Assembly (NCBI RefSeq): GCF_947500125.1
Contig: NZ_CANMRA010000009.1
Coordinates: 62,001 to 126,000, forward strand
Direction of reading: 5' to 3'
Length of the DNA stretch: 64,000 bases
DNA from: an uncultured Kocuria sp.
GTDB lineage: Bacteria > Actinomycetota > Actinomycetes > Actinomycetales > Micrococcaceae
The notes under the pieces were generated by a model. That model was given only the letters and a program-made list of their open reading frames with translations. It was not told where the DNA came from and ran no database searches. A program made the position numbers and the translations under genes. Of this stretch, positions 59,949-63,854 are shown piece after piece; within the stretch, counting starts at the first letter, position 1, and each line of letters begins with the position of its first letter.

Positions 59949-61358
59949 TCAGCCGGCGGGAGTGGCCTGCAGGCTCCCCTGCCGGGCGGCCCAGGCGGCG
60001 TAGGAGCCCTCGAGCTCCACGACGTCGTAGCCGGCGTGGCGCAGGGTGGAGGCCACGACCGAGCTGCGCAGACCGCTCTGGCAGTAGGTCACGACCGTGC
60101 CCTGGGTCGGGAGCCGGTCCAGGTTCCACAGGACCCGGCCGCCGTGCAGCTGGGTGGAGCCGGGGACGGAGCCGGCGGCGTGCTCGCTGACGGCGCGCAC
60201 GTCCAGCAGTACGGCCTTGTCGAAGGCCTCGACCTCCTCGGGGGAGACCAGCTGCGGAGTGGACTGCGGCAGGCCCTCGATCCCGGTGACGTAGCCGGCC
60301 ACGGCGTCGATGCCCACGCGCACCAGGTGGTCCCAGAACTCCTGGGCCGCCTCCTGGTCGGAGGCCAGCAGCACCAGCGGGCGGGAGTCGGCCTCCGGGT
60401 TCACGGCCCAGGCGCCGAAGGTCGCGATGGACTTGCCGGCCGGGATGTTCAGCGCCCCGGTCACGGTCCCGGTGTGCACCTCGTCCGCGGAGCGGGTGTC
60501 CACGAAGGTCACCTCGTCGGCGGCCAGCTGCTGCGCGACCTGCTGCACGTCGAGCTCGGGCAGGGGTGCCCGCTCGCCCATGACGGCCGGGCCCCGGCGG
60601 TTCTGGTTCTTCATCCGCCCGAAGTAGAACGGGGCGTCGGGCTGGCCCTCGAGCAGCTCGGCGACGAAGCCGGCCTCGTCATCGGCCGCCAGGTAGGGGC
60701 CCCACCAGGCGTAGAGGCGCTCGTAGCCCACCGTGGTGGAGGGGATCGCGCCCAGCGCCTTGCCGCAGGCCGAGCCGGCCCCGTGGCCGGGGAAGACCTG
60801 GACGTGGTCGGGCAGGGTCAGGAACTTCTCCTTGAGGCTGGCGAACATCTGCTTCGCGCCGAGGAAGCGGGTGTCCACCCCGCCGGCGGCCTCGTCCAGC
60901 AGGTCGGGGCGGCCCAGGTCGCCGGAGAACACGAAGTCGCCGGTGAGCATGTACCCGGGGGCGTCGGCGAAGGCGCCGTCGGTGACCAGGAAGGACAGGT
61001 GCTCGGGGGTGTGGCCCGGGGTGTGCACGGCCTTCACCACGATGTTGCCGATGCGGATCTCGTCGCCGTCGTGCAGGCGGGCGGCCTCGAACTCGTACTG
61101 CCAGTCCTCCCCGCCCTCGCCGGAGACGTGGATGTCCGCGCCGGTGGCCGCGGCCAGCTCGCGGGTGCCGGAGAGGTAGTCGGCGTGGATGTGGGTCTCG
61201 GTGACCGCGGTGATCTCCATGCCGTTCTTCGCGGCCATGTCCCGGTAGACGTCGATGTCGCGGCGGGCGTCGACCACCAGCGCCTGGCCGGTGCGCTGGC
61301 ACCCGATGAAGTAGCTGGCCTGGGCGAGGTCCTCGTCGTAGATGCGCTCGATCAGCAT
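59949..61358 (-). CDS. cstB: CstB-like persulfide dioxygenase-sulfurtransferase
   Basis: 469 residues combining a metallo-beta-lactamase-fold non-heme-iron persulfide dioxygenase (~1-250) with two rhodanese domains. Metal ligands: H56, H58 and D60 in THIHADY, H116 in HTPGHTPEH, D141 in TGDFVF and H192 in GHGAGSACG. Y61 replaces the second-site His, as in CstB. C198 sits where CstB has its reactive MBL-domain Cys. The first rhodanese lacks a Cys; the second has C426 in YCQSGLRS. It should oxidise low-molecular-weight persulfides to thiosulfate and sulfite. ATG at 61358 after AAGGAGAG. Two CstR-type boxes lie upstream, so it is probably induced by persulfide stress. Confidence 0.88.
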   Translation of the reverse strand: MLIERIYDEDLAQASYFIGCQRTGQALVVDARRDIDVYRDMAAKNGMEITAVTETHIHADYLSGTRELAAATGADIHVSGEGGEDWQYEFEAARLHDGDEIRIGNIVVKAVHTPGHTPEHLSFLVTDGAFADAPGYMLTGDFVFSGDLGRPDLLDEAAGGVDTRFLGAKQMFASLKEKFLTLPDHVQVFPGHGAGSACGKALGAIPSTTVGYERLYAWWGPYLAADDEAGFVAELLEGQPDAPFYFGRMKNQNRRGPAVMGERAPLPELDVQQVAQQLAADEVTFVDTRSADEVHTGTVTGALNIPAGKSIATFGAWAVNPEADSRPLVLLASDQEAAQEFWDHLVRVGIDAVAGYVTGIEGLPQSTPQLVSPEEVEAFDKAVLLDVRAVSEHAAGSVPGSTQLHGGRVLWNLDRLPTQGTVVTYCQSGLRSSVVASTLRHAGYDVVELEGSYAAWAARQGSLQATPAG

Positions 61359-61434
61359 GAATCTCTCCTTCGTTCGGTGGCTGTTGACACGTTCCCCGGG
61401 TGGGGTTCCCCGCGTCGTCCTGAGCACAACGATA

Positions 61435-61473
61435 ATACCCCTGGGGGTATCGCGCAAGTACCCCCCAGGGTAT
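61435..61473. promoter_or_regulatory. Two CsoR/CstR-type operators
   Basis: ATACCCCTGGGGGTAT (61435-61450) and GTACCCCCCAGGGTAT (61458-61473) each fit the ATACC-C/G run-GGTAT operator of persulfide sensor CstR and copper sensor CsoR. They are spaced 23 bp centre to centre, about two helical turns, and the second ends one base before the sqdX stop. Because cstB is the next gene, CstR is the better guess. No cstR is in the window. Confidence 0.75.
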
Positions 61474-62625
61474 CTACGCAGCGGGGTGCCGGGGCGGCTT
61501 CCTGCGGCTCCGGTGCCGGTCGACCGCCTCGTGGTAGGACGCCACGAGGAACTCGGTCGCGGCCCGCCAACCGAGGCCCTCGGCCTCGGCCCGGCCGGCC
61601 GCGCCCATCCGCGCGCGCAGACCCGCGTCGTCGAGCAGCCGGACCAGACCGTGGGTGAGCGCGTCCGCGTCGCCGGGCGGCACGAGCAGCCCGGTCCGCC
61701 CGTCGTGCACCGCGAACGGGATCCCACCGGCCCGGGCGCCGACCACCGGGACCCCGCTCGCCAGGGACTCCAGGGCCACCAGCCCCAGGGTCTCGGTGCT
61801 GGACGGGAACGCGAACACGTCCGCCGAGGCGTACGCGGCCGCCAGCTCCTCCCCGGCGAGCCGGCCCGGGAAGACCGTGGGGGTGCCCGCGAAGCGCCGT
61901 TCCAGCTCCGCCCGGTGCGGGCCGTCGCCCACCACGGCGAGCCGGGTGCCCGGCAGCCGCCGGAGCGGCTCCAGGAGGGCCTCCACGCTCTTCTCCTTCG
62001 ACAGCCGTCCCACGGACAGCACCAGATGCTCCCCGGGGTGCCCGTCCGTGAGCCGGCGTCGCATCGCGGGAGACGCCTTCGCGGGGTGGAACAGCTCCGT
62101 GTCGACGCCCTTGGGCCACAGCGCCACGTCACGCACGCCCAGGGCCGCGGCCCGTTCCACCATGGGACCCGACGTGCACAGGGTGACCTCGGCGAGGTTG
62201 TGGGTCGTGCGGATCCACCGCTCCACGGGTCGGCGCAGGGCTCCCAGCCCGAACACGCCCAGGTACTGCGGGACGTCGGTGTGGAAGGACGCGAGCAGCG
62301 GCAGGCCCCGCGCCCGCGCCGAGAGAGCACCCCACGCACCGAACCAGACCGGGTTCACGGCGTGCACGACGTCGGGGCGGAACGCCGACACGGCGCGCTC
62401 GACCCGCGGGGACGGCAGGCCTCCCCGGACGTCCCGGTACCAGGGGAACGCCACGGAGGGGGCCCTGACCACCCGGTGCGGACCCCAGTGCTCGGGCGGG
62501 TGTCCCGGCGTGAGCACGAGCACCTCGTGGCCCAGGTCCCCGAGCTCGTCGAGGGTGCGGGTCAGGCGCGTCACCACACCGTCGACGTTCGGGACGAAGA
62601 CGTCCGTGTACAGCGCGATCCGCAT
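61474..62625 (-). CDS. sqdX: Glycosyltransferase, SqdX-like (sulfoquinovosyl diacylglycerol synthase)
   Basis: 383-residue GT4 enzyme. The N-terminus MRIALYTDVFVPNVDGVVTR is close to SqdX; ASFHTDVPQYLG lies mid-domain, and the C-terminal nucleotide-sugar motif is FPSSTETLGLVALES (E-x7-E) near 285-300. In cyanobacteria and plants this enzyme moves sulfoquinovose from UDP-sulfoquinovose to diacylglycerol. Adjacency to sqdB (8 bp) supports the same role here. If sqdB made another sugar, it could instead be a phosphatidylinositol-mannosyltransferase-like enzyme. ATG at 62625. Confidence 0.75.
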   Translation of the reverse strand: MRIALYTDVFVPNVDGVVTRLTRTLDELGDLGHEVLVLTPGHPPEHWGPHRVVRAPSVAFPWYRDVRGGLPSPRVERAVSAFRPDVVHAVNPVWFGAWGALSARARGLPLLASFHTDVPQYLGVFGLGALRRPVERWIRTTHNLAEVTLCTSGPMVERAAALGVRDVALWPKGVDTELFHPAKASPAMRRRLTDGHPGEHLVLSVGRLSKEKSVEALLEPLRRLPGTRLAVVGDGPHRAELERRFAGTPTVFPGRLAGEELAAAYASADVFAFPSSTETLGLVALESLASGVPVVGARAGGIPFAVHDGRTGLLVPPGDADALTHGLVRLLDDAGLRARMGAAGRAEAEGLGWRAATEFLVASYHEAVDRHRSRRKPPRHPAA

Positions 62626-62633
62626 CCGCCGGC

Positions 62634-63854
62634 TCAGGCGCCGACGCCCACGGCCGCGGGGCGGACCGGCCGCGACGGGACCCCCGGGCGCCGGCGGGCG
62701 TTCCACACGGACGTCGCCGGGATGCGGGAGAGGTCCACGCGGTGGGCCCAGCGCACGGCGGCCTCCTCGACCTCCAGCAGCAGGCCCTCCGAGAGGGTGG
62801 TGGGCCGCAGCCCGAGGTCCAGGAACGCGTCGTTGTCGACGTGCAGGTCGTTCTCCGCGGACTCCTGGCGGGGGTTGGGGACCATCTCCACCACCGCGCC
62901 GGTGAGCCCGGCCACGAGATGGGCGAGGTCGCGCACCCGGTGGGTCTCCGTCATCTGGTTGAAGATCTTCACGCGGTCGCCGGCCGCCGGGGGGTGGGTG
63001 AGAGCGAGCTCCACGCACCGGACCATGTCCTGGATGTGGATGAACGCGCGGGTCTGCCCGCCGGTGCCGTGCACGGTCAGCGGGTGGCCGACCGCCGCCT
63101 GGACGAGGAAGCGGTTGAGGACCGTGCCGTAGTCGCCGTCGTAGTCGAAGCGGTTGACGAGCCGCTCGTCGAGCGCGGTCTCCGCGGTGCTGGTGCCCCA
63201 GATGATGCCCTGGTGCAGATCGGTGATCCGCAGCCCGTCGTTCTTGGCGTAGAAGGCGAACATGGCCTGATCCAGGACCTTGGTCATGTGGTAGAGCGAG
63301 CCGGGCTGGGAGGGGTAGAGGATCTGCTGGGGGACGCTGCCGTCGGGGCCGGGGACCTCCACGTCCAGATACCCCTCCGGGATCCGCATCCCGGCGGTGC
63401 CGTACCCGTAGACGCCCATGGTGCCCAGGTGCACGAGGTGGACGTCGAGGCCGGACTCCACGATCGCGCACAGCACGTTGTGGGTGGCGTTGACGTTGTT
63501 GTCCACGGTGTAGCGCTTGGTGCGCGGGCTCTTCATGGAGAACGGCGCCGCCCGCTGCTCCGCGAAGTGCACCACGGCGTCCGGGCGCTCGATGACGAGG
63601 AGGTCGAGGAACGCCTCGTAGTCCTCGGCGAGGTCGATCCCGGCCGCGCCGATCCGCCGGCCCGTGCACTCCGCCCACGCCGCCCGGCGCTCGTCGAGGC
63701 CGCGGATGGGGGTCAGCGACTCCGTGCCGAGCTGAGAGTCGATGGCGCGGCGGGAGAGGTTGTCGACCACGACCACGTCGTGGCCGCGCGCGGACAGGTG
63801 CAGGGCGGCGGGCCAGCCGCAGAAGCCGTCACCACCGAGGATCGCGATCTTCAC
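62634..63854 (-). CDS. sqdB: UDP-sulfoquinovose synthase (SqdB)
   Basis: 406-residue NAD-dependent SDR enzyme that makes UDP-sulfoquinovose from UDP-glucose and sulfite. Features match SqdB closely: GGDGFCGWPAALHLSARGHDV (residues 8-28), TESLTPIRGLDERRAAW, VVHFAEQRAAPFSMKSPRTKRYT, catalytic T145 in LGTMGVYGYG, Y188-x3-K192 in SLYHMTK, and DLHQGIIWG. Length is normal (~400). ATG at 63854. A PHO-type direct repeat lies 68 bp upstream. First gene of sqdB-sqdX. Confidence 0.86.
   Translation of the reverse strand: MKIAILGGDGFCGWPAALHLSARGHDVVVVDNLSRRAIDSQLGTESLTPIRGLDERRAAWAECTGRRIGAAGIDLAEDYEAFLDLLVIERPDAVVHFAEQRAAPFSMKSPRTKRYTVDNNVNATHNVLCAIVESGLDVHLVHLGTMGVYGYGTAGMRIPEGYLDVEVPGPDGSVPQQILYPSQPGSLYHMTKVLDQAMFAFYAKNDGLRITDLHQGIIWGTSTAETALDERLVNRFDYDGDYGTVLNRFLVQAAVGHPLTVHGTGGQTRAFIHIQDMVRCVELALTHPPAAGDRVKIFNQMTETHRVRDLAHLVAGLTGAVVEMVPNPRQESAENDLHVDNDAFLDLGLRPTTLSEGLLLEVEEAAVRWAHRVDLSRIPATSVWNARRRPGVPSRPVRPAAVGVGA

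Follow-up and report, generated by a model that had tools for sequence, protein, structure and literature searches.

Probable CstR operators in the promoter of a Kocuria persulfide dioxygenase gene and the length of CsoR-family operators in Actinomycetota

The cstB locus

The DNA analysed here, a 64-kb stretch referred to as the window, belongs to a Kocuria genome of 4.3 Mb. Its minus strand carries, in this order, sqdB, a glycosyltransferase gene resembling sqdX, two inverted-repeat boxes (box B, then box A) and cstB (Table 1). The gap between sqdX and cstB is 115 bp, and box B immediately adjoins the sqdX stop codon (61474-61476). Since the three genes are codirectional, the boxes precede cstB and lie behind sqdX, not before the sulfolipid genes.

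Box A (ATACCCCTGGGGGTAT) and box B (GTACCCCCCAGGGTAT) both follow the pattern ATACC-N6-GGTAT, the latter with one deviation, and their starts are 23 bp apart. They were the only matches with up to one mismatch in the 64 kb; shuffled versions gave a mean of 0.07 matches and reached two in one shuffle of 100, which places the inverted repeats above chance. Coordinates and distance agree with the initial annotation, in which two ATACC-type operators 23 bp apart had been described ahead of cstB.

The cstB product matched two solved structures, 3tp9 (E 3.1e-107, residues 1-459) and 3r2u (E 4.8e-86, residues 2-447), the second of which we take to be CstB of S. aureus. A metallo-beta-lactamase (MBL) domain and two rhodanese stretches were recognised by Pfam. 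In the alignment to 3r2u, the metal motif HxHxD and the cysteine of the C-terminal rhodanese (CQSG) are kept, and the middle domain lacks such a cysteine, i.e. the protein has the CstB layout of an MBL dioxygenase, a Cys-less rhodanese-like domain and a C-terminal rhodanese with its Cys. The earlier naming of a CstB-like dioxygenase is borne out by this match, the MBL and rhodanese domains and the CQSG cysteine. For the cst system of S. aureus, oxidation of sulfide to thiosulfate has been described (PMC5480029). Because the rhodanese Cys is kept, thiosulfate is the product expected by analogy with S. aureus, and it is most likely to thiosulfate that CstB oxidises persulfide.

The sqdB product matched SQD1 (1qrr; E 1e-98, residues 2-385 of 406) and contains TMG and YHxxK, which we take to be the active-site motifs of SqdB. 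Its score against the NCBIfam model NF041015 was 323 bits and did not reach the equivalog cut-off of 575, so that by this measure the name is probable rather than certified; the protein is very probably a UDP-sulfoquinovose synthase. The sqdX candidate displayed GT4 domains only, and its best NCBIfam model was that of another enzyme and scored below its cut-off.

Table 1. Features of the cstB locus (window coordinates) and box-bearing regions of the Kocuria genome (contigs C, loci L)
Feature	Location	Strand	Remarks
cstB, persulfide dioxygenase (MBL fold) - pseudorhodanese - rhodanese, 469 aa	59949-61358	-	structure matches and Pfam
Probable cstB -10, TATCGT	61429-61434	-	17 bp from -35; conserved TAnnnT after box
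Box A, near CstR-type operator (putative), 16 bp	61435-61450	.	ATACC-N6-GGTAT, perfect
Probable cstB -35, TTGCGC	61452-61457	-	read from sequence; conserved TTG before box
Box B, far CstR-type operator (putative), 16 bp	61458-61473	.	one mismatch
GT4 glycosyltransferase, probable sqdX	61474-62625	-	name inferred from adjoining sqdB
sqdB, UDP-sulfoquinovose synthase (very probable)	62634-63854	-	SQD1 match
cstR1 / rhodanese-YgaP	C4		two 16-bp boxes
Gene without Pfam match (ferritin-like by eye), then SQR-like flavoprotein (Pyr_redox_2)	C6		16-bp site
MFS transporter	C8; L020:4404-4419		16-bp site
cstB	C9		two 16-bp boxes
Between rhodanese and old-yellow-enzyme gene	C21; L023:4075-4090		16-bp site
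TauE	C23		two 16-bp boxes
Second dioxygenase-rhodanese	C23		16-bp site
cstR2 / rhodanese	C57		two 16-bp boxes
Third dioxygenase-rhodanese	C57		16-bp site
csoR-copZ-copA	C4		perfect 17-bp site
copZ-like gene	C40		perfect 17-bp site
copA-like gene	C41		perfect 17-bp site
P-type ATPase	C52		perfect 17-bp site
copZ-like gene	C18		17-bp site with one mismatch

The cstB promoter and the sulfolipid neighbours

Read on the minus strand, the intergenic region consists of box B, TTGCGC, a single G, box A and TATCGT, and the 17-bp spacer of the probable cstB promoter is made up of box A and one base. A scan of 61300-61560 for sigma-70 consensus promoters returned nothing, not even the -35/-10 pair of cstB, whose score is too low for the scan. 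The assignment draws on conservation. Outside the window, 73 of 87 non-redundant cstB loci have a box within 250 bp upstream; this set was derived from an initial 78 of 91 by removal of three duplicate rows and of one 37%-identical paralogue (L147), an intact TAC/GTA being required. In 65 of the 73 the box forms the promoter spacer, defined by a TTG no more than 10 nt ahead of the box and a TAnnnT that follows it after 0-1 nt, an arrangement met with at 0.9% of random positions in the same DNA. The box thus occupies a conserved position in the promoter of a persulfide gene. Among the 14 of 87 cstB loci lacking a 16-bp box within 250 bp, L035 (Arthrobacter sp. OVS8) has a 15-bp variant in the same promoter place, and L083 and L092 appear, by eye, to lie directly behind another open frame.

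The pair of boxes at 23-bp spacing recurs upstream of cstB in eight other Kocuria regions (L137-L143 and L146), and two further Kocuria copies (L144 and L145) have a single box. On the minus strand box B ends in GGTAC, immediately ahead of TTGC; this mismatch is common to all nine Kocuria pairs, that of the window included, and therefore looks conserved, not decayed. As box A fills the spacer between TTGCGC and TATCGT, in the manner of the 65 loci, repression by blocking of the promoter is likely, and the simplest mechanism would likely be that the bound repressor covers the cstB core promoter.

A different role could be conceived for the boxes, namely that cstB is additionally served by read-through from sqdB-sqdX and that box-bound CstR halts this transcript as a roadblock; the codirectional genes, their 115-bp gap and the failure to find a terminator-like hairpin in 61300-61560 would all be in keeping with it. 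This is nevertheless improbable, because the box coincides with the promoter spacer and because the same pair with the same spacing stands before cstB at L138, L140, L143 and L146, where no sqd gene was seen alongside (L143 having less than 1 kb of upstream DNA). Blocking of the cstB promoter itself is the reading retained here.

Two observations made in the course of this comparison concern other genera. Ten cstB promoters of Arthrobacter and Citricoccus (L067, L073, L076, L078, L086, L088, L091, L094, L096 and L102) each contain three boxes of 16 bp, near -120, -76 and -41. The record L039, titled Vibrio cholerae strain 35D, contains a cstB 76% identical to that of the window together with an Arthrobacter-like regulator and boxes, and the assembly is probably mislabelled or contaminated.

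It is tempting to connect the adjoining genes metabolically, as was done in the initial annotation, where it was suggested that detoxified sulfane sulfur might feed SqdB: sulfite made by CstB from persulfide would be used by SqdB, and the gene neighbourhood would reflect this coupling. Among the loci compared, the same-strand order sqdB-sqdX-cstB is restricted to five species of Kocuria, represented by the window and by L027, L028, L137 and L142 (4 of the 87 other cstB loci, some of which have short flanks). In 25 Kocuria genomes at least 90% complete, sqdB was present in 8 of 9 with a close cstB versus 6 of 16 without, a comparison not corrected for kinship, and kinship may lie behind it. Against the coupling stands, first, the position of the boxes, which are not placed before sqdB-sqdX; a search upstream of sqdB at up to two mismatches found none. 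Three of the eight Kocuria genomes with both genes keep them apart, six have sqdB without a close cstB, and among the other cstB genomes (47 non-Kocuria genomes, hand-picked from 80 loci) no sqdB was detected in 45 at E 1e-50.

Two further points count against the coupling. With the rhodanese Cys kept, thiosulfate would be expected from CstB, if the description of the S. aureus system applies (PMC5480029). The genome has two genes of the PF01507 (PAPS-reductase) family, consistent with a separate, assimilatory source of sulfite, the family being present in 14 of 14 control genomes and hence not specific. A literature search for a paper joining sulfoquinovose, sulfite and persulfide dioxygenase found none. 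Since the boxes lie behind sqdX, the neighbourhood is narrow and sqdB and cstB occur separately, the adjacency was judged incidental; sqdX and sqdB are regarded as neighbours and not as part of the regulated unit of cstB. The sulfolipid genes as a regulatory link were rejected on box positions, neighbourhood and co-occurrence, the metabolic link was kept as a quite unlikely one, and the attractive passage from sulfide to sulfolipid drops out of the account as unsupported.

CsoR-family regulators and the predicted persulfide regulon

The initial annotation had left the class of the regulator to be looked up in the full genome, which proved to contain four CsoR-family genes. Two of the products (L001 and L002) have the Cys-His-Cys copper set, and their genes adjoin copper genes. 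The other two (L003 and L004) are of the CstR type, with two Cys and a Gly in place of the copper His, and each of their genes is divergent from a rhodanese-YgaP-like gene. Both cstR genes are on contigs other than that of cstB. The nearest solved structure to the L004 CstR is 7mq1, deposited as CsoR and presumably the persulfide sensor of S. pneumoniae.

The genome contains 13 sites with up to one mismatch to ATACCC-N4-GGGTAT. They are spread over nine promoter regions: sulfur genes or cstR account for eight, an MFS transporter gene for the ninth (Table 1). They place cstB in a predicted actinobacterial persulfide regulon of about nine promoters. With two mismatches allowed the excess was mostly gone (34 versus 16 for the reversed control, in all). 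The shorter 14-bp pattern TACCC-N4-GGGTA gave 12 sites versus 4 for the reversed control; one site of this pattern, on C36 and additional to the regions of Table 1, lies inside a coding region and was taken as chance. The Pyr_redox_2 flavoprotein on C6 would be an SQR-like enzyme. The MFS transporter and old-yellow-enzyme genes, which have a box or lie beside one and are without a clear sulfur role, are possible new members of the regulon.

Contigs C23 (L024) and C57 (L026) carry similar cassettes, each with 16-bp boxes, TauE and a dioxygenase-rhodanese about 35% identical to the CstB of the window. Contig C57, 9 kb long, also includes a resolvase-like fragment and what by eye resembles a multicopper-oxidase gene; it may be mobile.

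Boxes longer by one base pair (ATACC-N7-GGTAT) form a second set. The four perfect 17-bp sites of the genome are all at copper-type genes; at up to one mismatch 9 sites were counted versus 5 for the reversed control, and besides these four and the one on C18 they lie on C5, C25, C27 and C48. The two kinds of box have both arms, TACC and GGTA, in common. When 214 regulator loci were compared within 350 bp upstream of the gene, a 17-bp box was present at 60 of 106 CsoR loci and a 16-bp box at none of them, and CstR loci had a 16-bp box in 88 and a 17-bp box in 4 of 108 cases. Each set of identical proteins contributed one entry, and the counts exclude 14 rows with other residue patterns (2 N6, 1 N7, 1 N8, 1 N5, 9 none). 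The association of spacing with regulator class gave a Fisher p of 1e-39, not corrected for kinship, and a control in which the arms were rearranged matched once over all spacings. By these counts CstR is the likely sensor of the cstB boxes and the copper reading fails.

That a copper-sensing CsoR binds the boxes and brings cstB into the copper response, as two CsoR genes in the genome, the shared TACC and GGTA arms and a 17-bp box at a Deinococcus cstB (L336) might be taken to indicate, is very unlikely indeed, given that the cstB boxes are N6 and not TACC-N7-GGTA, that the perfect 17-bp sites are at copper-type genes and the 16-bp sites mostly at sulfur genes, that no 16-bp box was present at any of the 106 CsoR loci, and that the CsoR consensus reported for S. 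lividans, ATATACCCCTNAGGGGTATAT, is N7 (TAC-X9-GTA; PMC3902906). Use of the cstB boxes by a copper CsoR, the circumstance named at the outset as fatal to a persulfide reading, is countered in this indirect way, and copper CsoR would have no share in these sites because its operators are one bp longer.

It is highly probable, in our opinion, that boxes A and B serve as operators for a CsoR-family repressor of the dithiol, persulfide-sensing CstR type which, bound at the near and the far box, would shut the cstB promoter and be released by persulfide, with sqdB and sqdX as bystanders. The staphylococcal type of control that had been suggested as a model for cstB gains from the CstR-type boxes, the CstB layout and the two Cys-Cys regulators, and CstR-type control as such is favoured by the 16-bp boxes and the presence of those regulators in the same genome. 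Box sequence and spacing thus strongly indicate, without experiment, which sensor the boxes belong to.

The following course of events may be proposed. The repressor would be the product of one or both cstR paralogues, which lie elsewhere in the genome. In its reduced state CstR would occupy the near box, within the promoter spacer, and the far box, immediately before the -35, and so deny RNA polymerase access. Under sulfide or thiol stress persulfides would rise and react with the two Cys of CstR, which would let go of the DNA. CstB would then be made together with the products of a dispersed regulon, comprising the SQR-like oxidoreductase, the two further dioxygenase-rhodaneses, rhodaneses, TauE-type exporters and the CstR genes, and would oxidise persulfide, most likely to thiosulfate.

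The Kocuria system would be a further case of CstR-controlled persulfide oxidation, of a kind already known from Streptomyces and Staphylococcus. The closest parallel is the ScCsoR / Scpdo-SctauE / Scrhod circuit of S. coelicolor, in which the pdo promoter is described as having two ATACCn6GGTAT sites; the regulator that binds them has Cys37 and Cys66 and lets go in response to polysulfide, and the circuit also includes Rhod and TauE (PMC7533328). Two 16-bp sites before a persulfide dioxygenase gene, a Cys-Cys regulator, and TauE and rhodanese in the regulon are common to both. In the S. coelicolor circuit as described, however, the regulator gene is near its targets, whereas the Kocuria cstB is an orphan target, its contig having neither cstR gene; the Kocuria enzyme has the three domains of CstB, and the spacing of the boxes is 23 bp instead of the 39 bp calculated from the reported positions -48 and -9 (PMC7533328).

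With the Staphylococcus CstR / cstA-cstB-sqr system, where CstR is described as controlling cstB and sqr (PMC5480029), Kocuria shares the CstB architecture. On an S. xylosus plasmid, two 16-bp sites, ATACGTGCGGGGGTAT and ATACCCTTATAGGTAT, lie in the gap between cstR and cstA; they were found by eye and had not been listed by the G+C-rich filter. The staphylococcal genes probably form one operon, in contrast to the dispersed Kocuria set of about nine promoters and two CstR paralogues. The type 2 copper CsoR operators (S. lividans and relatives, TAC-X9-GTA) resemble the boxes in their TACC...GGTA arms and in protein family but differ in being one bp longer, in the C-H-C copper ligands of their regulators and in the copper efflux genes served.

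Operator length in copper and persulfide regulators

The counts of operator length by regulator class were made up of three parts. In 27 Kocuria genomes N7 was found at 20 of 39 CsoR loci and N6 at none, and the CstR loci had N6 for 11 of 13 non-identical proteins and N7 for none. In a sample of 115 loci from the order and phylum, which comprises part of the matches listed and whose lower-scoring rows were hand-picked to include CstR types, N7 was found at 40 and N6 at 0 of 67 CsoR loci, and N6 at 22 and N7 at 3 of 37 CstR loci. The loci fetched around cstB had N6 at 55 and N7 at 1 of 58 CstR genes. Of the four CstR loci with N7, L288 and L297 have N6 as well, which leaves L299 and L091 as the sole CstR-class loci among the 108 with a 17-bp but no 16-bp box.

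A tree of 170 proteins, in which the columns are few and many forks unresolved, contained a CstR clade of 57 rows (support 99/99; N6 33, N7 1, both 2, N5 1, none 20), into which CstR1 fell (as L017), and a CsoR group of 110 (support 83/93; N7 61, N6 0, none 49). The Staphylococcus CstR reference, whose branch is very long, came out next to the CsoR group, a placement flagged as unsure. As the split between CsoR and CstR is one deep event, the spacing is to be seen as a trait kept in two subfamilies and not as the outcome of many independent origins.

Outside the Actinomycetota the spacing is mixed. The Staphylococcus cstR-cstA gap has the 16-bp form, a 17-bp box lies just upstream of cstB on a Deinococcus grandis plasmid (L336:4947), and no such box was listed at the Priestia locus L334. 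The 17-bp box of L336 and the 15-bp box of L035 show that cstB promoters cannot all be recognised by box length alone.

A sensitivity of binding to spacing has been described for a Thermus CsoR-family protein, placed nearest CstR by its authors, for which one base added or removed between the repeats made binding about 10- or 15-fold weaker (PMC10318464). One may speculate, at what we would call even chances, that across Actinomycetota operator length insulates paralogous sensors: 16 bp (N6) would address the persulfide sensor CstR and 17 bp (N7) with the same arms the copper sensor CsoR, an indel of one bp would switch the regulon, and a lone single-Cys Kocuria paralogue at 15 bp (N5) would be a third channel. 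In the literature searched, from whose coverage the key S. aureus CstR/CsoR papers fell out, no paper stating such a rule was found, and its novelty is unproven. If it holds, copper and persulfide targets of the family in Actinomycetota could be separated by counting bases, and the manner in which near-identical operators stay apart would be directly testable with DNA variants of one base pair. Of the by-products of this analysis the spacing rule is the most interesting, and it is the part for specialists to test.

Relatives of the single-Cys regulator, all CstR-like, were found at 23 loci in 22 of 297 genomes; N6 was present at 21 of the 23, neither N6 nor another spacing at the remaining two, and N5, sought at all 23, at none, which makes N5 a single case among regulators. 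That regulator is a divergent CstR-like protein of Kocuria genome G005 (L213:1486-1863), whose gene lies beside two MBL-fold hydrolase-like genes (by eye), with tandem 15-bp boxes of the form ATACC-N5-GGTAT at L213:1800-1834.
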